Shown here: positions 4,711 through 21,348 of the stretch, one piece after another
Layout of the letters: every line of letters starts with the position of its first letter
Position numbering within the stretch: position 1 is the first letter of the stretch
Origin: Fusobacterium perfoetens
Lineage (GTDB): Bacteria > Fusobacteriota > Fusobacteriia > Fusobacteriales > Fusobacteriaceae
Direction of reading: 5' to 3'
DNA: 38,668 nt
NCBI RefSeq assembly: GCF_021531475.1
Contig: NZ_JADYTX010000020.1
Coordinates: forward strand, 1 to 38,668
Notes under the pieces: generated by a model
Databases searched by the model: none
What the model saw: the letters and a program-made list of their open reading frames with translations, nothing else
What the model was told of the DNA's origin: nothing
Translations under genes and position numbers: made by a program

Positions 4711-4769
4711 ATTTAGTTAAAGACTAGTTATTATACCATATTTTTCGGTTAAAATAAAGAGTGAAATAT

Positions 4770-5356: not shown

Positions 5357-6259
5357 GTGAATAATGATGCTGTTATAAAATTTATTAGCTCACAATTAAA
5401 ACCACCTACCACTTTTGAAAAACAGATAGAAAAATTAAAATCTAGAAATTTAACTATAGAAAATGAAGATTATGCTAAAGAAATTCTAAAAAGGGTAAAT
5501 TATTATTACATTACAGGATATTTACATGCTTTTAAAGATTTGAAAACAGATTGTTATATTGAGAATATAACGTTTAATAGAATTTATAAAATAATAAAAT
5601 TTGATATGAGATTAAGAAGTGTTTTTATGTATGCTATGGAAATACTAGAAAGAAATTTAAAAACATCTGTTGCCTATCACTTTTCCCATAACTATCCAGA
5701 AGGAAATATTTCCTACTTTTTTGACAGAGACTTTACCGACAAAATAAAACATGCAAAATTTATAGAATACGTTAAGAAGAATATTGAAAATAATGGGGAT
5801 TTACCTTTTATTCAACATCATAAACAACACTATCAAGGGTATTATCCTATTTGGGTAGCAGTGGAGATATTTACTTTAGGAAATTTAGAAAATTTTTATT
5901 CTTTATTAAATACTCCTGTACAAAAAAAGATAGCTAGAGAATATGATTGCAGTAAGATGCAGATGGAAAACTGGATAGAGGCTATGAGAAGGTTTAGAAA
6001 TATGTTGGCTCACGATACTAGACTTTATAATTCTAAGGTGATATTTACTCCTCTTAAGAAAAAAGAGTGTAATATAACTACTAATAAGATATTTGATTAT
6101 GTATTGGTTATGAAATTTTTAATAATGGATAAAGATGAGTGGGATAATAAGATAGTACCAGATATTAAAAAAGTTTTTGAAGAATTTAAAGAGGATATAG
6201 ATATTAAATGTATTGGTTTTCCAGAAGAATGGGAAGAGATATTAAAAAATAATAAATAA
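5357..6259 (+). CDS. AbiF/Abi_2-family HEPN abortive infection protein
   Basis: 300 residues of the Abi_2 (AbiD/AbiF) family: the N-terminal TTFEKQIEKLKSRNL and ILKRVNYYYITGYLHAFK segments and the central FDMRLRSVFMYAMEILERNLKTSVAYHFS are hallmark stretches. Near the C-terminus RNMLAHD (R214 to H219) gives the R-x4-H ribonuclease motif of HEPN domains, so an RNA-cleaving growth arrest on phage infection is likely. GTG 5357 is preceded by AAGGAGAG with suitable spacing. It sits behind a structured leader RNA with its own promoter, and is followed by a terminator, making a self-contained toxin plus RNA unit. AbiF proteins are proposed relatives of the ancestor of Cas13. Confidence 0.85.
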   Translation: MNNDAVIKFISSQLKPPTTFEKQIEKLKSRNLTIENEDYAKEILKRVNYYYITGYLHAFKDLKTDCYIENITFNRIYKIIKFDMRLRSVFMYAMEILERNLKTSVAYHFSHNYPEGNISYFFDRDFTDKIKHAKFIEYVKKNIENNGDLPFIQHHKQHYQGYYPIWVAVEIFTLGNLENFYSLLNTPVQKKIAREYDCSKMQMENWIEAMRRFRNMLAHDTRLYNSKVIFTPLKKKECNITTNKIFDYVLVMKFLIMDKDEWDNKIVPDIKKVFEEFKEDIDIKCIGFPEEWEEILKNNK

Positions 6260-6269
6260 TTGCATATAT

Positions 6270-6310
6270 AGAGCTATTGCATTTTTATAAGGTTGCAGTA
6301 GCTTTTTTAT
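6270..6310 (+). terminator. Intrinsic terminator behind abiF
   Basis: AGCTATTGCA / TGCAGTAGCT stem with one G-U pair, followed by a T-run. The stem resembles the ends (GGGGCTGTTGCA...) of the dispersed repeat at 2638-2853 and may be a shrunken copy. Confidence 0.8.
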
Positions 6311-6318
6311 TTTTAATT

Positions 6319-6347
6319 TTGTAAGTAGGCAAAAAATATAGTATAAT
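6319..6347 (+). promoter_or_regulatory. Promoter of the hsdRMS operon
   Basis: TTGTAA (6319-6324), a 17-bp spacer and TATAAT (6342-6347), about 80 bases ahead of hsdR. Confidence 0.6.
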
Positions 6348-6433
6348 ATATTTATTAAAAGTTATTAAAAAAATATTAATTTTATATTCTTATATTGCTA
6401 AGGGAATATTTATAAAGGAAACGGGTGGATATT

Positions 6434-9400
6434 ATGAATAGTAACTTTGAATTTTTGAAAAAAGATTGGGAAATCCTATTTAAAATAGGGGAGATGGCTG
6501 AGTATACCCTATATAAAGACCCAAACACTGCACTTATAAAGATGAGACAACTGGGGGAGTATTTAGTCAAGTCAATACTGAAGGTAGAAAAAATCTATGA
6601 TGAAAAGGATTCTAATCAAAAGAAAAAAATCTTACGTTTGAGGGAAGAGGACTTAATCACAGAGAAAGAGGCAAGCATATTAAATGCCCTTAGGGAGATA
6701 GGAAACAAAGCTGTACACAGTGCCTATGATGACAAGACCAAAGCTTTAGAGCTGTTGCCAAAGGTGGTGGAGCTATGCAGTTGGTTTAATGAAGTGTATG
6801 GTAGTGATTATAACTTTAATTCTGAAGAAGTAACTTATCAAAAACCTCTGGAAATAGATTATCAAAAAGCTTATGAAAGTCTAAAGAAAAAATTTGACGA
6901 GGTACAAGCTGAAAAAGAATTTTCACATATTCAGTTTGAGAACCTAAACATAAAGCCAAAAGAAGAGAGAAAGAAAATCTATCAAAAGAGAAAGGAAAAG
7001 GGACCTACAGAGGCGGAAACAAGATTTATAATAGATACACAGCTTAGAGAGGCTGGGTGGGAGGTAGACACTCCAAAATTAAACTATAAGATAAATAAAA
7101 CTTTGCCTGAAAGCAAAAGATATATGGCAATAGCAGAGTGGCCCTGTATAAAAGAGGACGGAGAAAAGGGGTATGTTGATTATGCTCTCTTTTATGAAAA
7201 AACTCTTGTTGGGGTAATCGAGGCAAAAAGATATAGTGTTGATGTAGGTAGTGCCTTGAGAAGAGACGGACTTATATACGCCAAAGGTATTTTAAATGTA
7301 AATGATGATATAAAGTTTTTGAAAAACTCTCCATTTGCTGATGGAAACAAAGTACAATTTATATTCGCCTCTAATGGACGTGGATATAATAAAGAGTGGA
7401 TTGATAAATCTGGTATTTGGTTTTTAAATGCCAAAGGGGAAAAGTTTTCGGTAAAGGCGTTACATAATTTTTATTCTCCAAAAGATTTGATGGAGATAAG
7501 CAAAAAAGATAATGAGAAAGCCAATGAAAAATTAAAAAATGAGAGTATAGATTATCTTACATCAAAAGACGGACTAAACTTGAGATACTATCAACTAGAG
7601 GCAGTACAAAAAGTAGAAAAGGCGTTGATAAATGGGCAACATAAAATTTTACTTACAATGGCAACTGGTACTGGAAAAACTAGAACTGCTCTAGCTATCC
7701 TTTATAGACTTTTGGAAAGTGACAGATATAAAAGAATATTGTTCCTTGTAGATAGAGCCACACTGGGAGAGCAAGCAATGGATACTTTTAGCAATGCCAA
7801 GATAAAACAGCAAAGTACATTGACGAGTATTTATGAGGTATTGGGACTTCAAGATAAAAATCCCAATGATGAAACAAGAGTTCACATTGCCACAGTGCAG
7901 GGCTTAATAAATCGTGTACTTTACTCTGATAATCCTCTATCAGTTGGAAAATATGACTGTATAATAATTGACGAGGCACACAGAGGATATACACTTGACA
8001 GAACTCCCAACGAAGATGAGGCAGAGTTTAGAGATGAGAAAGATTATCAAAGTAAATATCGTTATGTGATAGATTATTTTGATGCTGATAAAATCGCTCT
8101 TACAGCTACACCAGCACTACATACCTATGAGATTTTTGGAGAGCCAGTGTATCAATATTCCTATAGAAAAGCTGTATTAGACGGATATTTGGTGGACTTT
8201 GAGCCAAAGAAAAGAATTTATACTGAGCTTAATACAAAAGGGATAAATTACAAAAAAGGTGACGAGATAAAAGTCTATGACAAAGACAAGGAGATTATAG
8301 AAACAAAAGTCCTTGCTGATGAAATATCTTTTGATATAGAGGATTTTAATAAAAAAGTCATTGTAGAAAGTTTTAACAGAGTGGTATGTCAAGAACTTGT
8401 AAAGGAGATAGACCCTGAGGGAGAGGGGAAAACTCTTATTTTTGCAACAACAGACGAACACGCCGATATGATAGTAAGACTTTTGGAAGAGGAATATGAA
8501 AAAAGTAATAAATATGAAATAAACAGTGATATGATAAAGAAAATAACTGGTTCTGTAAAAGATGTATCAAAGCTAATATCAAAATATAAGAACGAGCAAT
8601 ATCCAACAATAGCAGTGACAGTGGATTTACTTACGACTGGGGTAGACGTTCCAAAGATTGTGAACTTGGTATTCTTACGTAAGGTAAAAAGTAGGATTTT
8701 GTATGAACAGATGATTGGAAGAGCCACAAGAAGATGTGACGAGATAGGGAAAGAGTATTTTACTATCTACGACCCAGTAGGTATTTGTGAGGATTTGGAA
8801 AAATATACAGATATGAAACCAGTGGTAAAAAATATAGATTATCAGATAAAAAATCTTTTTAAAGAGTTGGAAGACTCCAGTGATTATGAGGAAAGAAAAA
8901 AATATTACGCTGATAATATAATAGCAAGATTACAGAGAAAGAGAAAGAAAATAGAGGCAAAGGGAGATGTTGAGTTCAAAAGTTATTCAACCCTTTTGAG
9001 AGGTAGTGAGGTAGAAAATATCAACGAATACTTGGGGATTTTGAAGGATAAACTTGAAACTGGAAATGTTGAGGATATTGAAAAGGAGAAAGATTTCTTG
9101 ATATATCTTGACCAGTTAAAATTTGGAGGTAATAAGCAAGTTGTATCAGAAGTCCAAGACAGAGTGATAAAAACTGTGGAAGATTACGGAGATACAGAAA
9201 ATCCAAGTGATTACCTTGAGGGATTTACAAAATATATAAATGAAAATAAAGATAAAATCCAAGCTCTAAATATCTACTTTACTAATCCAAAACTATTTAC
9301 AAGAAAAGATTTGAAAACTATAAAAATATTGCTAGACGGAGCAGGTTATAAAATATCAAACCTTGAAAAAGCATATAGCAAAAGAGAAAACAAATGTGAG

Positions 9401-9709
9401 ATGACCTTGGATATAATGACATTTATAAACAACGCTATAAAAGGGTCTCCTATAAAAGAGAAATCTGAAAAAGCAAGAGATGTAGAGAATAAAATAAAAG
9501 GTCTTTATAACTGGGATAGTAAACAGCTAAAAATAATAAATACTCTGGTGGAGCTAGCTGAAAAAAATGATTTTATAACCGAAGAGGATTTTAAAGAGGA
9601 AAAAGTAAAACATGATTTAGGTGGAGGTTATAAGAAAATCGACGGAAAATTAGAGGGAATGCTTGAGGAGATACTAAACCTTATAAAAGACGAGATGATA
9701 TTAAACTAA
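6434..9709 (+). CDS. hsdR: Type I restriction enzyme R subunit (EcoEI-like)
   Basis: 1091 residues from ATG 6434. Domains in order: a DUF4145 helical domain (about 1-125) as in EcoEI-type R subunits; a PD-(D/E)xK nuclease domain with D249 in GYVDYALF and E263-x-K265 in GVIEAKR; a superfamily 2 helicase/translocase with Walker A ATGTGKT (410-416) and DEAH (513-516), SAT-like TATPA, and a C-terminal motor part with motif VI QMIGRATRR. It cuts unmodified DNA after ATP-driven translocation in complex with HsdM and HsdS. A GTG three codons upstream (6425) has an equally good ribosome site; ATG 6434 (MNSNFEFL) fits the family better. All catalytic residues appear intact. Confidence 0.92.
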   Translation: MNSNFEFLKKDWEILFKIGEMAEYTLYKDPNTALIKMRQLGEYLVKSILKVEKIYDEKDSNQKKKILRLREEDLITEKEASILNALREIGNKAVHSAYDDKTKALELLPKVVELCSWFNEVYGSDYNFNSEEVTYQKPLEIDYQKAYESLKKKFDEVQAEKEFSHIQFENLNIKPKEERKKIYQKRKEKGPTEAETRFIIDTQLREAGWEVDTPKLNYKINKTLPESKRYMAIAEWPCIKEDGEKGYVDYALFYEKTLVGVIEAKRYSVDVGSALRRDGLIYAKGILNVNDDIKFLKNSPFADGNKVQFIFASNGRGYNKEWIDKSGIWFLNAKGEKFSVKALHNFYSPKDLMEISKKDNEKANEKLKNESIDYLTSKDGLNLRYYQLEAVQKVEKALINGQHKILLTMATGTGKTRTALAILYRLLESDRYKRILFLVDRATLGEQAMDTFSNAKIKQQSTLTSIYEVLGLQDKNPNDETRVHIATVQGLINRVLYSDNPLSVGKYDCIIIDEAHRGYTLDRTPNEDEAEFRDEKDYQSKYRYVIDYFDADKIALTATPALHTYEIFGEPVYQYSYRKAVLDGYLVDFEPKKRIYTELNTKGINYKKGDEIKVYDKDKEIIETKVLADEISFDIEDFNKKVIVESFNRVVCQELVKEIDPEGEGKTLIFATTDEHADMIVRLLEEEYEKSNKYEINSDMIKKITGSVKDVSKLISKYKNEQYPTIAVTVDLLTTGVDVPKIVNLVFLRKVKSRILYEQMIGRATRRCDEIGKEYFTIYDPVGICEDLEKYTDMKPVVKNIDYQIKNLFKELEDSSDYEERKKYYADNIIARLQRKRKKIEAKGDVEFKSYSTLLRGSEVENINEYLGILKDKLETGNVEDIEKEKDFLIYLDQLKFGGNKQVVSEVQDRVIKTVEDYGDTENPSDYLEGFTKYINENKDKIQALNIYFTNPKLFTRKDLKTIKILLDGAGYKISNLEKAYSKRENKCEMTLDIMTFINNAIKGSPIKEKSEKARDVENKIKGLYNWDSKQLKIINTLVELAEKNDFITEEDFKEEKVKHDLGGGYKKIDGKLEGMLEEILNLIKDEMILN

Positions 9710-9725
9710 TAGGAAGAGGGATAAA

Positions 9726-11144
9726 ATGACAAATAATGATATAGTACAAAAACTGTGGAACCTTTGTAATGTATTAAGAGATGATGGGATAACTTATCAC
9801 GAATATGTAACAGAGCTGACATATATACTATTTTTAAAAATGGCAAACGAGCAAGAAAGAGAAGAGGATATTGGAATACCAGAAAGTTATCGTTGGGAAA
9901 ATCTTGTGGCACTTGATGGATTAGAGCTTAGAAATACCTATCAAAAAGCTTTGCTTGACCTAAGTACAAAAGAGGGAGAACTTGGGGTTATCTATAGAAA
10001 TGCCCAAACTAGAATTGAAGAGCCAGCAAATCTTAAGAAAATCTTTACAGAGATTAATAAGCTTGACTGGTACTCTGTGGATAAAGAGGACTTTGGAGAT
10101 TTGTACGAGGGGCTTTTGGAGAAGAACGCCTCTGAGAAAAAATCTGGAGCTGGGCAGTACTTTACCCCTAGAGTTCTTATTGATACTATTGTAAGAATAA
10201 TAAAGCCAAAACTAAAAGAGACTATCTGTGACCCTGCTGCGGGAACTTTTGGTTTTTTAATCGAGGCAAATAAATTCTTAAGAAGAGAGAACAATAATTA
10301 TGATGATTTAAGTATAGATGAATATAACTGGCAAAGAGATAATGTTTTCTCAGGTTGTGAGCTTGTAGCTGATACCCATAGACTTGGTATAATGAATGCA
10401 CTTCTTCACGAGATGAGGGGAAAATTTATCCAAGGGGATACACTTTCGGAAACTGGTAAGCAACTGGGGAAAGTAGATATAATCTTGTCAAATCCCCCTT
10501 TTGGTACTAAAAAAGGTGGAGAGAGAGCCACAAGAGATGACCTTGTAAATAAGACTTCTAATAAGCAACTTAATTTTCTTCAAGTGATATATAACTCCCT
10601 AAAACAAAATGGAAAATCTCGTGCAGGAGTGGTATTGCCTGATAATGTGTTGTTTGAGGGTGGTACTGGTCGTGATATTAGGATAGATTTGTTGAACAAA
10701 TGTAATGTGCATACAATACTTAGACTGCCAACAGGGATATTTTATGCACAAGGGGTTAAGACAAATGTTTTATTCTTTACAAGAGGTGTAAGTGATAGGG
10801 ATAATACTCAAAAGATTTGGTACTATGATATGAGAACTAATATGCCAAACTTTGGTAAGACTACTCCTTTGACAGCTGAGCATTTTCGTGAGTTTGAAGA
10901 AACTTTTGATGATGAGGTGGCAAAATCTAATATTGATAGATGGAGTTTGGTTACATTAGATGAGATTGTAAAGAAAGATTACTCTCTTGATATGGGACTT
11001 CTTAAGGTGGAAGAAAGTCAAGAGGAACTAGCTAACCCTATTGAGAATGGGGAAGAATGTGTTGAGAAATTGGAAGAGGCTCTTGATATGCTAAAGGGGA
11101 TATTGGCTGAGCTTAAATCTTGTGGGGTGACAAAAGATGCCTAA
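9726..11144 (+). CDS. hsdM: Type I restriction-modification DNA methyltransferase subunit
   Basis: 472 residues of the N6-adenine methylase family. The N-terminal helical HsdM_N domain is followed by GAGQYFTPR (141-149, motif X), DPAAGTFGF (169-177, SAM-binding motif I) and NPPFG (256-260, catalytic motif IV). It methylates adenine in the site chosen by HsdS and is also part of the restriction complex. It starts 16 bases behind the hsdR stop with AGGAAGAGGG upstream, and its end overlaps the hsdS start by eight bases, indicating translational coupling. Confidence 0.93.
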   Translation: MTNNDIVQKLWNLCNVLRDDGITYHEYVTELTYILFLKMANEQEREEDIGIPESYRWENLVALDGLELRNTYQKALLDLSTKEGELGVIYRNAQTRIEEPANLKKIFTEINKLDWYSVDKEDFGDLYEGLLEKNASEKKSGAGQYFTPRVLIDTIVRIIKPKLKETICDPAAGTFGFLIEANKFLRRENNNYDDLSIDEYNWQRDNVFSGCELVADTHRLGIMNALLHEMRGKFIQGDTLSETGKQLGKVDIILSNPPFGTKKGGERATRDDLVNKTSNKQLNFLQVIYNSLKQNGKSRAGVVLPDNVLFEGGTGRDIRIDLLNKCNVHTILRLPTGIFYAQGVKTNVLFFTRGVSDRDNTQKIWYYDMRTNMPNFGKTTPLTAEHFREFEETFDDEVAKSNIDRWSLVTLDEIVKKDYSLDMGLLKVEESQEELANPIENGEECVEKLEEALDMLKGILAELKSCGVTKDA

Positions 11145-12657
11145 GAAGAAAGGAAAAGAGGAACAAACTCTTGATGAAAAACTAAAGATGGCAATAGTCC
11201 CAAAGGAAGAAGAACCTTATAAAGTGCCAGATAATTGGGTATGGACAAGACTGGGGAATATAGCTGAAAAAATTTCAAAAGGTACAACTCCAAGAGGTGG
11301 AGGACAAGCTTATACTGACAAAGGTGTAAAGTTTTTAAGAGTTGAAAATATATCAGATGATTACAGGATAGATACTTCAAATATCAAGTATATTACTGAA
11401 GAAATACACAATGGATTTTTAAAAAGGTCTATTTTAGAAGAAAATGATTTATTAATTAGTATAGCTGGTAGTTTGGGAAAAACGGCAATAGTTTTAAAAG
11501 AAAATTTACCTTTGAATACAAATCAAGCCATTGCTTTTGTTAGACTTATAAATAAAGAAAAATATATTTCTAAATATTTTGCTTATTTTTTTAATTCCAA
11601 TATTGTGAAAAAATCACTACTTAGTCAAACAAAAGTAACGGCTATTCCAAATTTAACACTAGAAATTATAAATAATACTAAAATTGCTTTACCACCAATA
11701 GATGAACAAAAAAGAATTGTTAATAAATTAGATTATTTCTTTGAAAAAATCCAAAAGGTTAAGGAGATAATAGAAGAAGTAAAAGAGAAGAATGAGGCAA
11801 GAAAAGAAAGTATATTATCAAAAGCCTTTACTGGAGAACTTACAGAAAAATGGAGAGCTGATAATATTCACAGTGCCAAAGAGTTACTTAGTAAAATCAA
11901 TGATGAAAAGCTATCTAATTGGGAGCAAGAGTGCCAAAAGGCAGAGGCAGAGGGAAGAAAGAAACCTACTAAACCAAAATTAAAATCTATTGATGAAATG
12001 ATAGTGCCAAATGACGAAATCCCTTATGAAATACCAAATAACTGGGTATGGACAAGACTTGGAGATATAGCAGAGATAAATATGGGACAATCTCCAGAGG
12101 GATCAACAGTTTCTCTTAATAAAGAAAATGGAATTGGATTAATTGGAGGTGCTAGTGATATGGGAGAAGTATTTCCATCAATAACTAGATACACGACCAA
12201 GCCAACGAAATTATCAACAAAAGATGATATAATAATATCAGTAAGAGCTACTTTAGGAAAACCCATTTTTTCAGATGGTATTTATTGTTTGGGAAGGGGA
12301 GTTTGTGGGATAAAAAGTAATATTTATTTAAAAGAAATGATAAGAAACTATTTTAATTTAATAGAAGAACAGTTATATAAATTAGGTACAGGTTCAACTT
12401 TTTCACAAATTTCAAGAGAAATTATATCTAATCTAATGATTGCTTTACCACCAATAGAGGAGCAAAAAGAGATAGTTAGAATATTAGATAATATCTTTAC
12501 AAAAGAAAACCTAATAAATGAACTAATCTCCCTAGAAGATAAAATCCAAGCCTTAGAAAAATCAATACTGGATAAAGCTTTTCGTGGAGAGCTTGGGACT
12601 AATTCTAGTGATGATATAGAGGCAATGGAGCTTTTAAAGGAAATCCTACAAAAATAG
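11137..12657 (+). CDS. hsdS: Type I restriction-modification specificity subunit
   Basis: 506 residues with two target-recognition halves, each opening with a near-identical P(D/N)NWVWTRLG(N/D)IAE and closing with IALPPI(D/E)EQK(R/E)IV followed by a coiled-coil spacer helix. The halves recognise the two parts of a bipartite site. The TRDs themselves (KISKGTTPRGGG... and MNMGQSPEGST...-like starts) differ, as expected. The repeated helices allow domain shuffling. The last codons (KEILQK) are duplicated 560 bases downstream, beyond the RelB/RelE pair. Confidence 0.92.
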   Translation: MPKKKGKEEQTLDEKLKMAIVPKEEEPYKVPDNWVWTRLGNIAEKISKGTTPRGGGQAYTDKGVKFLRVENISDDYRIDTSNIKYITEEIHNGFLKRSILEENDLLISIAGSLGKTAIVLKENLPLNTNQAIAFVRLINKEKYISKYFAYFFNSNIVKKSLLSQTKVTAIPNLTLEIINNTKIALPPIDEQKRIVNKLDYFFEKIQKVKEIIEEVKEKNEARKESILSKAFTGELTEKWRADNIHSAKELLSKINDEKLSNWEQECQKAEAEGRKKPTKPKLKSIDEMIVPNDEIPYEIPNNWVWTRLGDIAEINMGQSPEGSTVSLNKENGIGLIGGASDMGEVFPSITRYTTKPTKLSTKDDIIISVRATLGKPIFSDGIYCLGRGVCGIKSNIYLKEMIRNYFNLIEEQLYKLGTGSTFSQISREIISNLMIALPPIEEQKEIVRILDNIFTKENLINELISLEDKIQALEKSILDKAFRGELGTNSSDDIEAMELLKEILQK

Positions 12658-13862: not shown

Positions 13863-13974
13863 TTTGTAAAATTTTTTGACTGGATATGACAGAGGTGGAC
13901 TTGGGTTTTTAAGGATTTTCTTCCTTTATGATAAAATTGGTTATAACCAAAAAACATTTAAAGGAGGTAAAAAT

Positions 13975-14280
13975 ATGGCATTATCAGTAGAAGAGGCAAA
14001 AGTGATTGTTCAGGAATCTCTTGATAAACTAAAAGAATCTATAAAAAGAGAGGTGGGATACACTAAGGAGCTGGCTGATGACAAGTTGACTTTGAAAACT
14101 CTTGAAAAGATGAAAACAGATGGCGAAGAACTTCCTGTTGGTTGCCCTTATGAATCTTTTGATGAGTGGATTACCCAAATCAACAAAGAGATAAAATCTA
14201 GTGAGCAGTCTATTGCAAGAATTGGCAAGGAAAAAGCTGAGATTATGGCTTTTGAATATTATGTCACTAACGGTAAATAG
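13975..14280 (+). CDS. Conserved-looking hypothetical protein, 101 residues
   Basis: From ATG 13975, which follows AAAGGAGG by seven bases (the frame is open further upstream but without a ribosome site). The protein is mostly helical and charged, with a KLKESIKREVGYTKELADDKLTLKTLEKMK coiled-coil-like stretch, a central VGCPYESFDEW turn and a second long helix. No family recognised. It is the first gene of the phage-like part of the island; a 27-residue ORF follows within two bases. Confidence 0.6.
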   Translation: MALSVEEAKVIVQESLDKLKESIKREVGYTKELADDKLTLKTLEKMKTDGEELPVGCPYESFDEWITQINKEIKSSEQSIARIGKEKAEIMAFEYYVTNGK

Positions 14281-14282
14281 AG

Positions 14283-14366
14283 ATGGACAATTTCTATAAG
14301 TATAGGCTAATAGAGATACTTGCCAAAGTCATTGAAAAAATAATAAAAACTATCTTTGGTAGTTGA
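14283..14366 (+). CDS. Possible micropeptide, 27 residues
   Basis: The ATG starts two bases behind the TAG of the 101-residue gene, so it could be translated by coupling; its own ribosome site is weak. The sequence (YRLIEILAKVIEKIIKTIFG in its core) is a clean amphipathic helix with alternating lysines, like a membrane-active peptide. It ends just before an intrinsic terminator. Could also be chance. Confidence 0.35.
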   Translation: MDNFYKYRLIEILAKVIEKIIKTIFGS

Positions 14367-14373
14367 CTTTTTT

Positions 14374-14400
14374 CGGGAGAGGAAACTCTCTCTTTTTTTG
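14374..14400 (+). terminator. Intrinsic terminator
   Basis: GGGAGAG-GAAA-CTCTCTC followed by a run of T; ends the 101-residue gene transcript. Confidence 0.8.
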
Positions 14401-15156
14401 TTTTTTTATAAAAAAATTAAAAAAAATTTCTCTCCTTGTCTCTGGCTGTCTCTGGCTGATTTTGCTTTTTTTGGTTTTTGAGATATCATATATATAGGCA
14501 AAAAATAAAGTTTTTGTCCATTGTGTCCAATAGGTCTATCTGGTATTTTACTATTTTGGTAGTCAGATATTTATAAAAATTTTGAATAGAGTGAAAGGAG
14601 TGTCTTGGGGTATTTCCTCTTTTTAGAGTTTTATTTTAAAATATATTTAGAAAAAATAAATTAATCAATATTTTCATTCTTACTTGGGTTTTAAAAGAAA
14701 GCTAATTGTAGTGTGAATAGATAGATTTTTTTGAGAAAAAGGAAGAATCTAAAGGCTTAAAAGGATAGTTTACCAATTTTATAATTTTAAGTTTGAAAGT
14801 AGAGGAAATCAAATGGCTACCGATAAAGATATTGGATAAGTTTTTTGTGTAGAAGTTTTTATCCGTACGATAGATGTTTTTTTAATAAAAATATATTTAA
14901 AATCGTATGGATATAATATTTTTATTTTGAATTTATTATATTTAATATTGAAATATAAAGAAAAATATTGAGATGTAATATTATAAAAAACACTTGCAAA
15001 ATTTTTAAATACGGCGTATACTATACGTAGCAAGACGGATATAAATTAAAAAACAGGTTTAATACGTATGGTAAAAAAGGTACAAGGATAAAACTTGCAG
15101 GATAATTATTAATAAAAATTATTATAAAGATAAATAATATAGGGAGGTAGGATAAT
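14401..15156. other. Long non-coding stretch ahead of the antirepressor
   Basis: No supported gene in about 750 bases. It holds a short tandem duplication (GTCTCTGGCT twice near 14440-14456), an inverted repeat TATCCGTACGAT / ATCGTATGGATA (14860-14871 with 14902-14913, one mismatch), and several TACGTA-like palindromes towards the right end, together with the antirepressor promoter. The clustering of palindromes suggests an operator region like those between divergent phage repressor genes, but no repressor is seen on the left. Confidence 0.5.
14994..15027 (+). promoter_or_regulatory. Antirepressor promoter with operator palindrome over the -10
   Basis: TTGCAA (14994-14999), 17-bp spacer, TATACT (15017-15022). 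The perfect palindrome CGTATACTATACG (15015-15027) covers the -10, as expected for a repressor site. Confidence 0.65.
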
Positions 15157-15951
15157 ATGGAAAATTTAATTACTGTAAAAAATGTAAAAGGGTATGTTGA
15201 TGAAAAAGGTACGGCGTATCTAAATCTTGAAGATGTGGCTAGAGGACTTGGATTTACAAGAATTGCTAATAGTGGTAATGAAGTAATAAGATGGGAAAGA
15301 GTAAGAAAATATCTTCAAGAATTAAATGTACCCACTAATGGGCACGATATCGTAATAAGTTGCGACGGTCAAGGGAAAGAAAATCTTCCTGAGTTTATCC
15401 CAGAAAATATCTTCTATAAATTATGTATGAAAGCCAATAACGAAACAGCTAGAAAATTCCAAGACTTGGTCTGTGATGAGATACTTCCTACAATTAGAAA
15501 AACAGGTGGGTATATGACAATATCAGAGAGTGACACAGAAATGGACATTATGGCAAAGGCTGTTTTGTTAGCACAAAAGTCTATCGAGATAAAAAATAAG
15601 AAGATAGCAGACCTTGAAACAAAAATAGATAGTGATGCACAAAGGGTATCTTTTGCTGAAACTATTGAAAAATCCAGTGATTGCCTACTTGTGAGAGAGT
15701 TTTCCAAAGTGATAGCTAATGAGGGGATAAACCTTGGAGAGAAAAAGCTATATAGATGGCTTAGGGATAAAGGATTTATCCTTAAAAATTCCACAGAGCC
15801 AACACAGAGAGCTGTAACAATGGGGCTTTTTAAGGTAGCAGAAAGAGTGGTTAAAGCTGTTACAAAGGATATAGTCACAAAAACCACTCGTATAACAGGA
15901 AAGGGACAAATATATTTCTTGGAGCTTTTGAAAAAAGAGTTTTTAGCTTAA
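15157..15951 (+). CDS. Phage antirepressor (BRO-N plus KilAC/ANT domains)
   Basis: 264 residues. The N-terminal BRO-N domain (about 1-115) includes LNLEDVARGLGFTR and the diagnostic ETARKFQDLVCDEILPTIRKTGGY. After a helical linker, the C-terminal half (about 160-264: FAETIEKSSDCLLVREFSKVIANEGINLGEKKLYRWLRDKGFI...) is a KilAC/ANT domain. Such proteins relieve phage repressor control. GGGAGG precedes the ATG by nine bases. It is followed by the primase-helicase, the order found in phages, phage-plasmids and satellites. Confidence 0.88.
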   Translation: MENLITVKNVKGYVDEKGTAYLNLEDVARGLGFTRIANSGNEVIRWERVRKYLQELNVPTNGHDIVISCDGQGKENLPEFIPENIFYKLCMKANNETARKFQDLVCDEILPTIRKTGGYMTISESDTEMDIMAKAVLLAQKSIEIKNKKIADLETKIDSDAQRVSFAETIEKSSDCLLVREFSKVIANEGINLGEKKLYRWLRDKGFILKNSTEPTQRAVTMGLFKVAERVVKAVTKDIVTKTTRITGKGQIYFLELLKKEFLA

Positions 15952-16045
15952 GGGATAGACGATTTAAAATAGGTAGATATAACGATTTAGAAAAGATTTG
16001 ATATTTTGTGGGAGAGAAAAATAATCATTTTAAAAGGGGGAGAAA

Positions 16046-18181
16046 ATGAGCAAATACGACAAGTTTAAACAATACGGCGACGAGCTAAGGTTTGTCTATT
16101 GCCCTATTTGTGGTAAAGAAAAAGACAATCCAGATTTTGCTGTGAATATAAAGACTGGGCAGTATTATTGTCATTCCACTGGTAAAGGTGGGAATATAAA
16201 GGAGATAGAGGATTTTGATATAAATCTTCTAAACATAAAAGATGTGCCTATGCCTAAAAAAGAAATCAAAAATTTTACAGATTTTTTCGTAAGGCAAATC
16301 CAAAATCATCTTGGAAACGACTGGTTGGAATATCTGAAAAGTAGGGGGATTAGTGGGAAATACCTGAATACTTTTTGTCGTAGAGGTCGTTATAACTCTA
16401 TGATGATACCAATCGTAGACGAGAATAGAAAAATCGTAGGTATCAAGTATAGAACCATTGATAAAAAACTTTCATCAGAGGCAGGAAGTCAGACTAATTA
16501 TTTTGTAAACTGGCATAATATAAAGGATTTTAGTTATATTGTGATAGTTGAGGGAGAGATTGACCTTTTAAGTCTTGTTGAGGCTGGGTATTACAACGTG
16601 GTTTCTTTGCCATTTGGGGCTAAAAATATCAAGTGTGTGGCTAATCAAAGGACTTGGCTTGAGAAATTTGAGAAAATTATAATTGCCACTGACAACGACG
16701 AGGCAGGGAAAGAGAGCAAAGAGAGGATAAAAGAGGAGTTAGACCCTATATCGTACAAGCTTTATGAAGTAAACTTAGGAAAATACAAAGATTTTAACGA
16801 GGTGTTGGAGCAAGAGGGAGTGGCAAAAGTTGGGGAGATTTTGGACAGTGCCAGCAGTATATGGGTGGATCCAAGCATTTTCTACGGAGAGAAAGGGAAA
16901 TTTTTGTTTTTTAAGTTTGCCGAATATCTAAAAGTCAAGTATAAGGTAGCCAAGATTGACAACGAACTCTATCAATACAATGGGAAAATCTATGCTAAAG
17001 ATGAGGAGATACAAAGGTTTATGATTAAGGAGATACCTGAGCTTTCGGCAAGGCAACGGAAGGAAACAATGGAGTATCTAAAGTTGATAGCCCCTATAAA
17101 AAACAGAAATGACAGGGGTTTGGTGGCTTTTGGCAACGGTATTTATTCTGTTTTGGAGGACAAGCTCTATCCATTTAGCCCTGATTTTGTGATAACTAAC
17201 GAGATTTTATGGGATTACAATCCTAATTCTTACAGCGAGATTATGGACAAGACCCTAGATAAATTTACTTGCGGTGAGAAAGATACCAGAACTCTTTTGG
17301 AGGAGATGATTGGATATATATTCTTTAATAAGAATGAGTTAGGAAAAGCCTTTGTGATTGTGGGAGATAAATCCAACGGTAAGAGTACTTTCTTAAAAAT
17401 CCTATCCTATCTTCTTGGAAAAAATAATATCAGTGCTTTAAACCTTGAAGATATCACAAATTCGAGGTTTAGGGTATATCAAGTGGCGAACAAGCTCTTA
17501 AACATTGGGGACGATATAGGGAGCGGATATATTCCAGAGAGTGAGAATTTTAGAAAGCTCGTAACTGGGGATATTATAACAGCTGAGCAAAAGGGGAAAG
17601 ACCCAGTGGAGTTTAGTTGTTATGCCAAATTTATCTTTAGTGCCAATGAAATCCCCAAGATAAAAGACCCCACAGGAGCCACTGCCCGTAGGATAATCAT
17701 TATCCCCTTTCGCAACACCTTTACCCAAAAAGATACCGACTACGACCCCTACTTTCTTGACAAAATTAAAAATAAATCTTGTATGGAATATCTGATAAAA
17801 ATTGGAGTTGAGGGATTAAAGAGAGTTTTGTCAAATAAAAAATTTAGCGAAACTAAAAAAACTGATGAGCTTTTGGATAAGTTTAATAAAAATAATAATC
17901 CACTTTTTGAATTTGTGGAATTTCTGGAGAATGACAGCCCTAATCCTATGAAATTTGATTTTATTATCAATAATTATTCCTGCTTAGCTATTTTTGACGG
18001 AAAATTTAACTTGGAACATAAGGAAAATACTCTTGTTGGGTATAAGGAGTGGGCTAGTAAAAATGGATATAAGGGGATTTCTTACAATACTTTTAAAGAT
18101 AATATGTGTAAAAACTTTGGGTTGGATATTAAACAGCTTAGAAAAATTGGGAAACGTCAGAGGTATTTTGTGAAAAAATAA
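16046..18181 (+). CDS. Primase-helicase (zinc-finger/Toprim + D5-type SF3 helicase)
   Basis: 711 residues. The N-terminus carries a CHC2-like zinc site (C19-x2-C22 and C42-H43). A Toprim domain follows with VEGEID (168-173) and the acidic pair ATDNDEAGKE (D216, D218). The C-terminal half is a D5_N plus superfamily 3 helicase with Walker A GDKSNGKST (440-448) and a FSANEIPKIKD sensor region. One protein thus supplies primase and helicase, as in P4-like satellites, phages and phage-plasmids. GGGGGAG precedes the ATG. No integrase, capsid or terminase gene is in the window, so the element is partial or lives by its replication genes. Confidence 0.9.
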   Translation: MSKYDKFKQYGDELRFVYCPICGKEKDNPDFAVNIKTGQYYCHSTGKGGNIKEIEDFDINLLNIKDVPMPKKEIKNFTDFFVRQIQNHLGNDWLEYLKSRGISGKYLNTFCRRGRYNSMMIPIVDENRKIVGIKYRTIDKKLSSEAGSQTNYFVNWHNIKDFSYIVIVEGEIDLLSLVEAGYYNVVSLPFGAKNIKCVANQRTWLEKFEKIIIATDNDEAGKESKERIKEELDPISYKLYEVNLGKYKDFNEVLEQEGVAKVGEILDSASSIWVDPSIFYGEKGKFLFFKFAEYLKVKYKVAKIDNELYQYNGKIYAKDEEIQRFMIKEIPELSARQRKETMEYLKLIAPIKNRNDRGLVAFGNGIYSVLEDKLYPFSPDFVITNEILWDYNPNSYSEIMDKTLDKFTCGEKDTRTLLEEMIGYIFFNKNELGKAFVIVGDKSNGKSTFLKILSYLLGKNNISALNLEDITNSRFRVYQVANKLLNIGDDIGSGYIPESENFRKLVTGDIITAEQKGKDPVEFSCYAKFIFSANEIPKIKDPTGATARRIIIIPFRNTFTQKDTDYDPYFLDKIKNKSCMEYLIKIGVEGLKRVLSNKKFSETKKTDELLDKFNKNNNPLFEFVEFLENDSPNPMKFDFIINNYSCLAIFDGKFNLEHKENTLVGYKEWASKNGYKGISYNTFKDNMCKNFGLDIKQLRKIGKRQRYFVKK

Positions 18182-18657
18182 TTTGTGGCACGGCTTTTGT
18201 GCCAAAGGCACAGGGGATTTTGGTAAATCGAGTCACTTTAAAATATTTAAAGATGATAAGTTGGGATAAAAATGGCACGGTGGAACAGAATTTTCTCTTA
18301 TAGACTGACATATAGAAAAGAAGTAAGGGGGAAAGAGTAGATGAGAAGTGTAGAGGAAGTTGGGATTTAGCTGTGCCACTGTGCCAAATATTATTAATAC
18401 TAGATATTATATTGGCTTATGATGTCACAACTAAGATGATAGGTGGCACAACTTTAGTAATTGCTGTGCCAATGGAGAGATTTTTATATGCTGGGAGTTG
18501 GTTAATAAGAATATATTATATTGGTTTATTGGCGGTAGACATATGGTTTAATTGGTTTATAAAAGGAGATTGTAGGTTGATTTTTGGTGGTAGATTTATA
18601 TATTAAAGCTTTTAATTTAAAAGGTTTATAATATGTTGGTTAAAATAGGGGGGAGAA
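18182..18657. other. Iteron-like GTGCCA region behind the primase-helicase
   Basis: TGTGCC / GGCACA occurs about eight times in both orientations between 18184 and 18472 (for example near 18185, 18199, 18207, 18273, 18373, 18380, 18443 and 18465). The rest is AT-rich. Repeated short sites beside a replication gene are typical of a plasmid-like origin. No supported gene lies here; a 77-codon frame at 18373 lacks a ribosome site and reads through the repeats. Confidence 0.45.
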
Positions 18658-18843
18658 ATGGAATTACCAAAGGGGGCTTGTTTAAGGGAGTTTTATTATA
18701 GGGGGCTTTACTGCGAAACCTCAGAGGAGCTTTTGGACTATATCAAAGATAATAAGTGGTATTTCGACAAGATGCCTCCCAAGGTGCAGGAACAGTTTCG
18801 ATATATTTATAGGGATTTAAAAGAAAAAGAGAATAGAAAATAA
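18658..18843 (+). CDS. Small phage-type protein, 61 residues
   Basis: The ATG follows GGGGGGAG by three bases. Acidic and aromatic (FYYRGLYCETSEELLDYIKDN..., YIYRDLKEKENRK), probably a small all-helical protein. No family recognised; position and composition match the small accessory genes behind phage primases. Confidence 0.6.
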   Translation: MELPKGACLREFYYRGLYCETSEELLDYIKDNKWYFDKMPPKVQEQFRYIYRDLKEKENRK

Positions 18844-19128
18844 GATAATATGGCTATTTGTAAAAAAATTAAAAAGATAATAAGATGATTACCTATTGGA
18901 TAAAAATAGATTTATTATAAAGTATGTCAATTTCACTAAAGATAAGAGGAAAACCACTAAAAATAAATTAAGAATAGCCTATAAATAAGATTATATAGAC
19001 TAAAAAAACTGTCCATTAGATAAAAATAATATAAAAATAGATTTAATAAAGTATTATCAAAAATATTGATAGAGATAAGAGAATAGATAACAAAATTTAC
19101 AATAGATTAAAAAATAGGAGGTACTTAA
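18844..19128. other. AT-rich stretch with an imperfect direct repeat
   Basis: No gene. An ATTGGATAAAAATAGATTTATTATAAAGTAT-type block near 18895 recurs in altered form near 19012 (ATTAGATAAAAATA... with TTTAATAAAGTAT). With the GTGCCA repeats 400 bases upstream this could be the melting region of an origin; that is conjecture. Confidence 0.3.
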
Positions 19129-19389
19129 ATGGATAAGAAATTTAAAGAGGAGTTTTTTAAGAACTATCGTTATCATCTGACTTTAAAACAAATGAGGACA
19201 ATATTTGGGCTATGCTCTGAGATTGCTAAAAAGTTTGGCATTGATAGGGAGGAGGCTAGGGAGGCTTTGAAACTTAACTTCTGTGAACTAAAGCAAATAC
19301 CTTATTTTTCGTGCAGTCCATATGAGTTTGATGCTCTAGGCTATGAAGACGCCAAGGAGTTTATAGATTATCTAAATTCTAAGGTGTAG
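19129..19389 (+). CDS. Hypothetical phage-type protein, 86 residues
   Basis: The ATG follows AGGAGG by seven bases. Helical N-terminal half (FKNYRYHLTLKQMRTIFGLCSEIAKKFGIDREEAREALKLNF), then a Cys/Phe-containing turn (YFSCSPYEFDALGYEDAKEFI). The pattern of one long helical bundle followed by a small domain is common in phage early genes. Function unknown. Confidence 0.6.
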   Translation: MDKKFKEEFFKNYRYHLTLKQMRTIFGLCSEIAKKFGIDREEAREALKLNFCELKQIPYFSCSPYEFDALGYEDAKEFIDYLNSKV

Positions 19390-19401
19390 AGGGTGTATAT
19401 A

Positions 19402-19556
19402 ATTAAAAATTACTTCAGATTACAGAAATTTGATTTAATTAAAACTCACTCCATTAAAATCTCAAAACTCGCTATGCTCAAACAGTTGAGATTTTTAGCA
19501 TTTCGTATCGTTTATTAAATCATAAATTTCTTTCATATTTACGTAATTTTTAATTA
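19402..19556. repeat. Dispersed palindromic repeat, copy 2
   Basis: Flanks ATTAAAAATTACTTCAGATTAC and ACGTAATTTTTAATTATA frame a central hairpin AAATCTCAA / TTGAGATTT around the conserved loop AACTCGCTATGCTCAAACAG. The stem differs from copy 1 (TCACAA) by paired changes. Plus orientation. Confidence 0.7.
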
Positions 19557-19567
19557 TAATATCAATA

Positions 19568-19615
19568 TGTAATGTAAAAAATTACTTCATATTCCAAAAG
19601 TCTGACTTAGTTTAG
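19568..19615. repeat. Truncated dispersed repeat (left end only)
   Basis: ATGTAAAAAATTACTTCATATTCCAAAAGTCTGACTTAG matches, in pieces, the left end of copy 4 at 22722-22768; the hairpin core is missing. It leads directly into the leader of the HTH gene. Confidence 0.5.
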
Positions 19616-19656
19616 AGAGAAAATAAAGAGTTTAATTAAATAAAAGGGGGGGGACT

Positions 19657-19944
19657 ATGGAAAATAACAATAGAAACAGAGATATAGATTTTGATTATCT
19701 GTCAAATGACGATATAGTGGAACTTGCAAAGCCTCGGAATAAGTTGGAGGAGGACATTTTAAAGGACGCTTTGGCAAAACTTGGGGACTATACCACAGCT
19801 AAGAAACTGGCTAATTATATGGAGTTATCAGAAAGGAGTATCCGTCGCTATATTGATGATAGAAAACTTGTAACTTTTACCACTGGCACAAGACGGAAAA
19901 TCTATACAAGAACTATCCTAAATATAATAAACTTAAGCGAATAA
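19657..19944 (+). CDS. Helix-turn-helix protein, 95 residues
   Basis: After an acidic start (IDFDYLSNDDIVELAK) the middle LGDYTTAKKLANYMELSERSIRRYIDDRKLVTFTTGTRRKIYTR is a helix-turn-helix followed by a wing-like basic hairpin, similar to excisionase/MerR-like or Mga-type DNA-binding domains. A run of G (GGGGGGG) serves as ribosome site six bases before the ATG. It is the last gene before the CRISPR array and probably regulates or excises the element. Family uncertain. Confidence 0.65.
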   Translation: MENNNRNRDIDFDYLSNDDIVELAKPRNKLEEDILKDALAKLGDYTTAKKLANYMELSERSIRRYIDDRKLVTFTTGTRRKIYTRTILNIINLSE

Positions 19945-20006: not shown

Positions 20007-20554
20007 TTTTTTAACCTTATTTTAACTGGACAATGTTTCTTATGCAAATAAATTTATAACTTTTTCAGAAAGACCTCAGTTTCAATCCTTGTTATTAGTG
20101 GACAATGTTTCTTATAAAAAACAGTTACTGTCCCTAAAACAACACTATTTAAGTTTCAATCCTTATTTTAACTGGACGATGTTTCTTATACAAGATATGG
20201 TTAGCAAGGGAACAATAAAATTAAGTTTCAATCCTTATTTTAACTGGACAATGTTTCTTATTGAATTGAATTACTTTTTAAAAAAACTTGAATTTATAGT
20301 TTCAATCCTTATTTTAACTGGACAATGTTTCTTATAAAAGGAAATGATGCACCTAAAGGCGGTAAAATAGGGGTTTCAATCCTTATTTTAACTGGACAAT
20401 GTTTCTTATTGAAGAAGAAGAAGATATATAATCAATAATGTTTCAATCCTTATTTTAACTGGACAATGTTTCTTATGTTATTCTTCCTCATCTTCCTGCA
20501 GAAATCGATTTAGACAAGTTTCAATCCTTATTTTAACTGGACAATGTTTCTTAT
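20007..20554 (-). CRISPR. CRISPR array, 8 repeats of 37 bp and 7 spacers
   Basis: Repeats at 20007, 20079, 20153, 20225, 20299, 20373, 20440 and 20518, each 37 bp. On the minus strand the repeat begins ATAAGAAACATTGTCC and ends AAGGATTGAAAC; the ATTGAAAC end is typical of the 3' end of type I-B/III repeats, so the array is most likely read on the minus strand with its leader to the right. Spacers are 35, 37, 35, 37, 37, 30 and 41 bp. The repeats at 20007 and 20079 are degenerate and 20153 carries one change, as expected at the leader-distal end. No cas gene lies in the window. Spacer targets are unknown. Confidence 0.93.
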
Positions 20555-20852
20555 AGCATTTTTTCACTTATTCCCTTTTATTTACCTATTCTACGACAGA
20601 AAATACGTCGCGGTTTTCCCTTAAAAAACGGCAATTTTTTCCTACTTTTTTCCCTATTTTATGTGATTTTTTAATGTTCTCCGCGGGTTTAGATAAAGAA
20701 TTTAACAAAAGTTATAAACAAACTTTTTCAATTTCTCATTTTCCGCAACCTATCCATAATTATTTATAACATATTTTTCTAATTTTTTCAACCCTTTTTT
20801 TATAGGAACGACCTTTTTTATAAATCTTTTTCAATTTTTGCCAACTTACTAT
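20555..20852 (-). promoter_or_regulatory. Presumed CRISPR leader
   Basis: About 300 bases of AT-rich DNA without an ORF between the intact array and the decayed one, on the side where the leader is expected from repeat orientation. I could not pick out a clear promoter. The label rests on position. Confidence 0.45.
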
Positions 20853-21175
20853 GGAAAACTAATTCTTTTAACTAGATAATGTTTCTTAATCGTCTTGGAC
20901 ATTTTTGTCCATCACGATAAAATCAACGTTTCAATCCTTGTCATTACTAGATAAGTTTCTTAATCGTCGACATAAGTGTCAATGACCTTTAATTTTAATA
21001 CTTATTTTTACTAGATAATGTTTCTAATTTAGAAATAAAGATTGTTTTAACGGTGGACAAAAAAGTCCACGGTTTTAATCCTTATTCTAACTAGACAATA
21101 TTTTACCTTTTTGACCTGGTAGCGATATTATCTCCCTCAGCCCTTTTTAATACTTATTTTAATTGGAATATATCA
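20853..21175 (-). repeat. Decayed second CRISPR-like array
   Basis: Five diverged copies of the array repeat, near 20853-20890, 20928-20964, 20993-21028, 21072-21108 and 21144-21175, in the same direction as the intact array (for example CTAGATAATGTTTCT against CTGGACAATGTTTCT). The intervals are 37, 28, 43 and about 35 bases. Three intervals contain short perfect hairpins, such as GGAC-ATTTTT-GTCC (20897-20910) and GTGGAC-AAAAAA-GTCCAC (21053-21070). This is a relic, or the intervals serve another purpose. Confidence 0.6.
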
Positions 21176-21348
21176 GTCGTCCACAGCACGATAAGTGAGA
21201 TATGTTTAATAAAAATGTGTAAAGTCGTTCACTGTACGACAAAGAAAATGTTTTATATTTAATAAAAATTAAAGGGGAGAAAAACTCTCCCCTAAAACCT
21301 ACAATATTAAAAAATATTAAAAATCGATATTCTCAAAAACTTACATTA

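Follow-up and report, generated by a model that had tools for sequence, protein, structure and literature searches.

Arrays and genes at the locus

The stretch of Fusobacterium perfoetens DNA analyzed here (the window, 38,668 nucleotides) makes up the entire contig C20; the genome measures 2.02 Mb and is assembled in 92 contigs. Within the window are a defence island (5357-12657), which comprises an AbiD-type gene and a type I restriction-modification set, and a satellite-like element (13876-19944) with a BRO-N/KilAC antirepressor gene, a D5/Toprim primase-like gene and a weak HTH match. The satellite-like element stops just short of a CRISPR array, beyond which lie an AT-rich stretch and a block of five eroded repeats that run in the same direction as the array (Table 1). 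A DHH-family gene of the contig has an 82% relative in a Fusobacterium MAG, whose own contig stops inside the gene.

Table 1. Array, putative leader, decayed block and palindrome-bearing antirepressor gene in the window
Feature	Position	Strand	Basis or remark
BRO-N + KilAC antirepressor gene of the satellite-like element	15157-15951	+	Same kind of palindrome, GTACCCACTAATGGGCAC, at 15328-15345
Array of eight 37-bp repeats and 7 ordinary spacers	20007-20554	- (crRNA sense)	Degenerate end at low coordinates
AT-rich, leader-like sequence separating the intact array from the decayed block	20555-20852	-	Putative leader, from position and composition
Decayed repeat, 26/37 positions kept	20853-20889	-	Repeat scan
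Interval i3, piece of an AntA antirepressor gene including palindrome TCGTCTTGGACATTTTTGTCCATCACGA	20890-20927	-	39-nt exact match to the genome's own C17 gene (44 nt in the C23 copy)
Decayed repeat, 26/37, indel relative to consensus	20928-20964	-	Repeat scan and comparison of copies
Interval i4, BRO-N-type antirepressor palindrome (by similarity)	20965-20991	-	C23 copy identical to the L278 loop at 17/18 positions; one pair broken in window copy
Decayed repeat, 30/37	20992-21028	-	Repeat scan
Interval i5, AntA-type palindrome (by similarity), GTGGACAAAAAAGTCCAC at 21053-21070	21029-21071	-	DNA-level similarity above 138 + 150 controls
Decayed repeat, 29/37	21072-21108	-	Repeat scan
Interval i6, radC piece with palindrome at 21116-21140	21109-21143	-	C23 copy exact over 31 nt; two changes in window copy
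Final partial decayed repeat, 25/37	21144-21165	-	Repeat scan

Both the orderly array and the five eroded repeats had been named in a preliminary description of this DNA, and both are present. The 37-mers of the intact array start at 20007, 20079, 20153, 20225, 20299, 20373, 20440 and 20518; five of the eight share one sequence, a sixth departs from it at 1 position, and the pair at the low-coordinate end carry 4 mismatches apiece. Near-identical direct repeats at regular spacing, the marks of a CRISPR array, thus characterize 20007-20554. We assign the crRNA sense to the minus strand because the repeat ends in ...GGATTGAAAC-3' there, because the degenerate repeats lie at the low-coordinate end, and because sister repeats on another contig, C23, match the Rfam family CRISPR-DR7 in the same sense, just below its gathering score.

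The decayed repeats have kept their spacing and direction but only 25 to 30 of 37 positions, and scores of 25 to 26 are near chance: the same scan gave a stray 25 at 4731 on the other strand and one 25 in C23, and a score of 26 also occurs at 20785, inside the leader-like stretch. We nevertheless take the decayed copies to be real because of their spacing and because a second block, 98% identical, exists on C23. That contig has two more arrays with a related repeat, one of which is adjoined by a longer decayed block of eight intervals, here called i1 to i8 (L010 11140-11800). The two blocks have units i3 to i6 in common, with 5 differences over 252 bases, one of them in i4 and two in i6, and these leave hairpins spoiled in the window that are intact in C23. 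Interval lengths in the decayed blocks range from 27 to 43 nt. No copy of the block was found in 120 relatives, with five candidates scored per genome. An identical 19-nt repeat remnant occurs at L010 10155-10180, beyond the C23 leader, and at 21150-21168 in the window, at the end of the block, which hints at a rearrangement of the intact array relative to the block. The intergenic sequence that adjoins the C23 block (L010 11830-12420) contains many GGCACAG/CTGTGCC motifs.

The preliminary description had noted the absence of cas genes from the window, and the orphan status extends well beyond it. A single Cas1 gene is present in the genome, and Cas2, Csn2 and a Cas9 PI domain beside it identify its locus as type II-A; this locus (Cas9 end, Cas1, Cas2, Csn2; L011 62-3180) is cut by a contig edge. 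Family searches of the whole genome gave no match to RAMP or Cas5 genes, the two class 1 families covered. Because neither was found and the sole Cas1 is type II-A, the arrays of both contigs look orphaned. A CARF/Csm6-like gene near the C23 arrays (L010 5387-6532) has been kept, although no type III RAMP was found. No Rfam family reaches the gathering threshold in the window, and in the C23 region the only family at E<=1 is CRISPR-DR7 (RF01320), which recognizes the decayed repeats weakly (E 0.09-0.78); as a source of the hairpins described below, a described structured RNA family was therefore set aside, since only CRISPR repeats were matched in either region. Promoter-like sites are at chance level in both, with 5 against 4.0 in shuffles for the window and 9 against 14.3 for C23.

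Hairpins in the intervals of the decayed block

The intervals of the decayed block had been said to hold short perfect hairpins, and GGAC-ATTTTT-GTCC, GACA-TAAG-TGTC and GTGGAC-AAAAAA-GTCCAC are all there. Compared with the C23 block, the window hairpins of i4 and i6 are partly broken. A further GTCGT/ACGAC hairpin at 21224-21240 also exists, but it is weak (-5.6 kcal/mol), lies outside the repeat units and is probably due to chance.

By eye, every C23 interval holds a hairpin. Against dinucleotide shuffles, four of the eight reach p<=0.01, three lie at 0.017-0.033 and i1 is not significant (p=0.25), with a mean z of -3.5; in the window, two of the four intervals reach p<=0.01. The 19 intact spacers of C20 and C23 have a mean z near 0, none of them reaches p<=0.01, and the two sets of z scores are distinct (Mann-Whitney p=3e-6). 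The view that palindromes are abnormal for spacers is borne out by a comparison with 150 ordinary spacers (these 19 plus 131 from arrays of relatives; among the 131, z is below -3 in 2 and E<=-8.7 kcal/mol in 4): that energy is reached by 7/8 C23 intervals and 4/150 ordinary spacers (Fisher p=6e-9). With dinucleotide shuffles and relatives' spacers as controls, we reject chance as the source of the hairpins. Decay of the repeats was likewise considered as a source of hairpin intervals; in a same-genus array with variable repeats, none of 24 intervals falls below -5.9 kcal/mol, and variation of the repeats is thus not enough to produce hairpins.

Intervals match antirepressor genes and radC

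Three intervals match resident genes exactly. In their C23 copies, i2 is identical over 44 nt to a gene at C10:23018-23061 and i3 over 44 nt to a gene at C17:43346-43394, and the two matches sit at the same place in AntA-domain antirepressor genes, which are the only two AntA matches in the genome search; the C10 copy has an open frame of just 103 codons. The third, i6, matches the genome's own radC. Four viral contigs, which represent two distinct genes, contain the 20-nt core of i7, always within a BRO-N-type antirepressor gene and in different reading frames. The matches of i2, i3 and i7 take in gene sequence on either side of the palindrome.

Every interval was scored against 101 distinct antirepressor loops, a set from which the genome's own AntA genes were excluded. 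At the DNA level no control, among 138 spacers and 150 hairpins, reaches the score of i1, i3, i4, i5 or i7. The score of i2 is equalled by 3/138 spacers and 2/150 hairpins, that of i8 by 26/138 and 21/150, and that of i6, which is at chance, by 75/138 and 62/150. In the protein comparison, none of the 138 controls does as well as i1, i3 or i7 and a single one does as well as i2, while the numbers that do are 129 for i4, 17 for i5, 17 for i6 and 114 for i8. An assignment can thus be proposed for seven of the eight intervals, that of i2 and i6 from exact matches to own genes instead of the loop test, and that of i4 and i5, more tentatively, from DNA similarity alone. By exact match, i2, i3 and i6 are what CRISPR intervals are expected to be, unrelated fragments of foreign or self DNA, and i1, i4, i5 and i7 appear to be so by similarity.

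A protospacer search of a phage collection, which the preliminary description had proposed for the seven intact-array spacers, gave no match, nor did one with the spacers of array 2 of C23. The window block has no match among named phages; the C23 block has weak ones at E up to 10 (best listed E 0.2) and, among plasmids at the same cutoff, a best listed match of E 0.01, 41 bases at 85% to Vagococcus lutrae plasmids over i6. When viral contigs were scanned for exact patterns, i7 was found, and the other five intervals scanned (i5, i8, i4, i1 and i3) gave nothing. No PAM was established.

A palindrome in the hypervariable loop of antirepressor genes

The matched palindrome lies in the hypervariable loop of phage antirepressor genes of both the AntA (L096, L097, L173-L252) and BRO-N (L267-L317) types. 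We measured its strength as folding of 36-nt windows against synonymous-codon shuffles. The AntA sample comprised 93 loci (80 from viral contigs, 11 from relatives and 2 own), of which 90 were parsed into 46 clusters. Directly after a conserved D-F/Y motif the mean z is -2.2 and -2.0, with 54% of clusters below -2; elsewhere in the domain z is near 0, except in overlapping neighbours (-0.7 and -1.0). For BRO-N, mean z at the loop is -2.1 and -1.8 over 14 clusters, from a first parser that passed 16/52 loci. The palindrome in AntA and BRO-N genes is therefore stronger than the encoded protein requires. A hairpin occurs at the loop in five named phages, of Lactococcus, Staphylococcus, Enterococcus, Escherichia and Listeria, the last being weak; in the AntA gene of Listeria phage A118 another stretch is equally stable.

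The arms vary and pair. In the AntA Q/E-K class (28 clusters), pairing exceeds all 500 partner shuffles at positions 2, 3, 4, 7, 8, 9 and 10, and in BRO-N (a looser parser; 44 loci, 36 non-redundant) it exceeds all shuffles at positions 2 to 6. These shuffles ignore relatedness. Centring of the BRO-N rows used CAC..GTG, a choice that favours positions 1-2, and some rows were mis-centred. The BRO-N centre, CACAAGTG, is read in three frames (e.g., ATSG or HTSV, PQV, and HKCG), and among 21 rows with a centre score of 5 or 6 it is oriented as CAAG in 12 and CTTG in 4; AntA loops are A-rich in 35/46 clusters and T-rich in 7/46. The occurrence of the centre either way round speaks for double-stranded DNA no less than for RNA.

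The loop also changes as a unit. Where the flanks of two AntA genes are 90-95% identical, loop identity averages 0.44 (128 pairs, representing few independent clusters); where the flanks exceed 95%, the loops are the same (0.97); and alignments of close relatives show the whole palindrome segment replaced as a block. A repressor operator was considered and rejected: 12-mers of the site recur in 3/46 loci, against 2/46 for a control region, and a rough scan of 10 genes, in which counts include shifted registers of the site itself, revealed no clear second palindrome site nearby.

The gene matched by i6 stands apart. radC is not an antirepressor gene, and comparison with its relatives suggests that the palindrome it carries (C15:25510-25534) is recent and its own: the palindrome is absent from the eight other radC genes displayed out of the 15 relatives with a radC match, and the three closest relatives have the same protein length at this place, with no indel. 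Near-identical palindromes (CTGANNGCGATAWTATCGCNNTCAG) stand in radC and, at C15:33894-33918, between genes.

Origin of the decayed block

We consider it probable that the decayed block is what remains of a genuine CRISPR array that has lost its effector, that its spacers are mostly antirepressor palindromes, and that its hairpins are passengers. A former class 1 system, with the repeat class ending ATTGAAAC, would have captured palindrome pieces, by Cas1-Cas2 to judge from their length and the repeats; most would come from one type of site, the palindrome in the hypervariable loop of AntA/BRO-N genes, and one spacer (i6) from the cell's own radC, at a similar palindrome. Hairpins would be visible only because whole palindromes were captured. 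The system would then have lost its effector, after which the block would have decayed. Today it is probably inert or close to it; self-matching spacers would be harmless, as no matching effector is found in the genome. Support for this reading comes from interval lengths and repeat direction, from matches to antirepressor palindromes and radC that are exact or exceed the controls, from the conservation of the palindrome in antirepressor genes, and from the failure to find Cas5, RAMP or a cognate Cas1. The preliminary description offered a choice between an array recycled for a structured RNA and intervals that were never spacers. Our results do not bear out the choice in that form: the intervals look like spacers, being spacer-length gene fragments that match mobile-element genes, and recycling for a structured or antisense RNA is not needed to explain the hairpins, which are inherited from the targets since the palindromes are already present in the genes matched.

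Several observations count against the remnant-array reading. The repeats keep only 25 to 30 of 37 positions, yet i2, i3 and i6 match resident genes without a difference, whereas ordinary decay would be expected to strike repeats and spacers alike; either the repeats were already divergent at capture or the spacers have been maintained, and if maintained, the block would be an antisense or crRNA-like regulator of antirepressors. In addition, i8 does not rise above controls, i4 and i5 do not stand out at the protein level, five of the six exact-pattern scans were empty and yielded no viral source, this reading gives no reason for the focus on one site, and radC falls outside the antirepressors.

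We regard as unlikely, though worth weighing, that the block is a recycled regulatory RNA, transcribed so as to pair with antirepressor and radC transcripts and damp prophage induction, with selection keeping spacers exact while repeats drift. The three perfectly identical spacers beside heavily drifted repeats speak for it, as does the presence of the block in two copies, of which, as far as this can be assessed, the one on C23 has kept its identity to radC and the one on C20 has not. Orientation is partly favourable: i2, i3, i6 and i7 clearly share one sense, so that a plus-strand transcript from the window would run antisense to the genes they match, and i5 leans the same way, but i4 leans opposite and i1 and i8 are ties. 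Promoter-like sites no commoner than in shuffles, no matched RNA family except CRISPR repeats and the broken hairpins of the window copy all argue against it. A more elaborate variant, which we think rather unlikely, is that the antirepressor palindrome is a swappable, allele-specific cassette acting as nucleic acid, whose alleles are recognized by RNAs of a CRISPR-derived array that checks prophages and satellites; if so, selection of this kind would have left its mark in spacers that stay perfectly identical while the repeats drift. The swapping of AntA loops as cassettes between close relatives, and the several alleles within the block, could also suit a silent store of donor copies for switching the hypervariable loop, but shared flanks are short, the store is on other contigs than the genes and includes radC, and loop swaps are seen in phages elsewhere, which makes such a store hardly credible.

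It is improbable that the intervals were never spacers but small mobile palindromes that entered the array, the antirepressor genes and radC. The radC palindrome, with its absence from the displayed relatives without an indel and its near-identical copy at C15:33894, would fit such mobility, and so would the replacement of the AntA segment as a block between genes with about 90% identical flanks. Yet gene flanks in the matches of i2, i3 and i7 indicate that gene fragments were copied and not bare palindromes, and neither a terminal signature nor a target duplication is seen. Selection against autoimmunity, in which self-matching spacers were tolerated only if they folded on themselves into poor crRNA, would explain why all three exact matches are to own genes and why all three intervals have strong hairpins. 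We judge it very unlikely: a genome is rich in other hairpins (terminators and RNA genes), yet 7/8 intervals lead, by exact match or by similarity above controls, to two antirepressor families or radC, and i1, i4, i5, i7 and i8 have no full-length match elsewhere in the genome.

In the parts of the literature that were accessible, including PMC6755750, PMC6591296 and PMC11172241, we found no description of the antirepressor palindrome or of such an array. The AntA/BRO-N palindrome looks like an undescribed, covarying, cassette-swapped element in widespread phage lysis-lysogeny regulators.

Comparison with known systems

The c4 antisense RNA that controls the P1 antirepressor is phage encoded and acts near the ribosome binding site. 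The block would resemble it in silencing antirepressor synthesis by base pairing; here, however, the match falls within the coding sequence, and the array occupies a different part of the genome. Integron attC and loxP-like sites are structure-guided or palindromic DNA sites, and like them the antirepressor palindrome has arms that vary and pair, with a short centre in both orientations; unlike them, it occurs once per gene, with no linked recombinase and no conserved arm sequence. Phage-carried mini-CRISPR arrays target competing phages. The arrays described here share with them spacers against related mobile elements and a position near prophage or satellite genes, but they lie in chromosomal contigs without a shown phage boundary.

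In architecture there is a likeness to orphan or degenerate CRISPR arrays (the 3' ATTGAAAC class; Rfam RF01320, CRISPR-DR7), with 37-bp direct repeats, spacer-sized intervals, a leader side and a degenerate end, and no cognate effector found. Spacers normally sample many sites of many invaders; the block differs in that most of its intervals derive from a single type of palindromic site and not from protospacers scattered over many places. That most spacers derive from one palindromic site in one class of phage gene implies that capture or retention was directed there, presumably at the palindrome itself, and directed capture or retention at one site would be a new rule for CRISPR memory.
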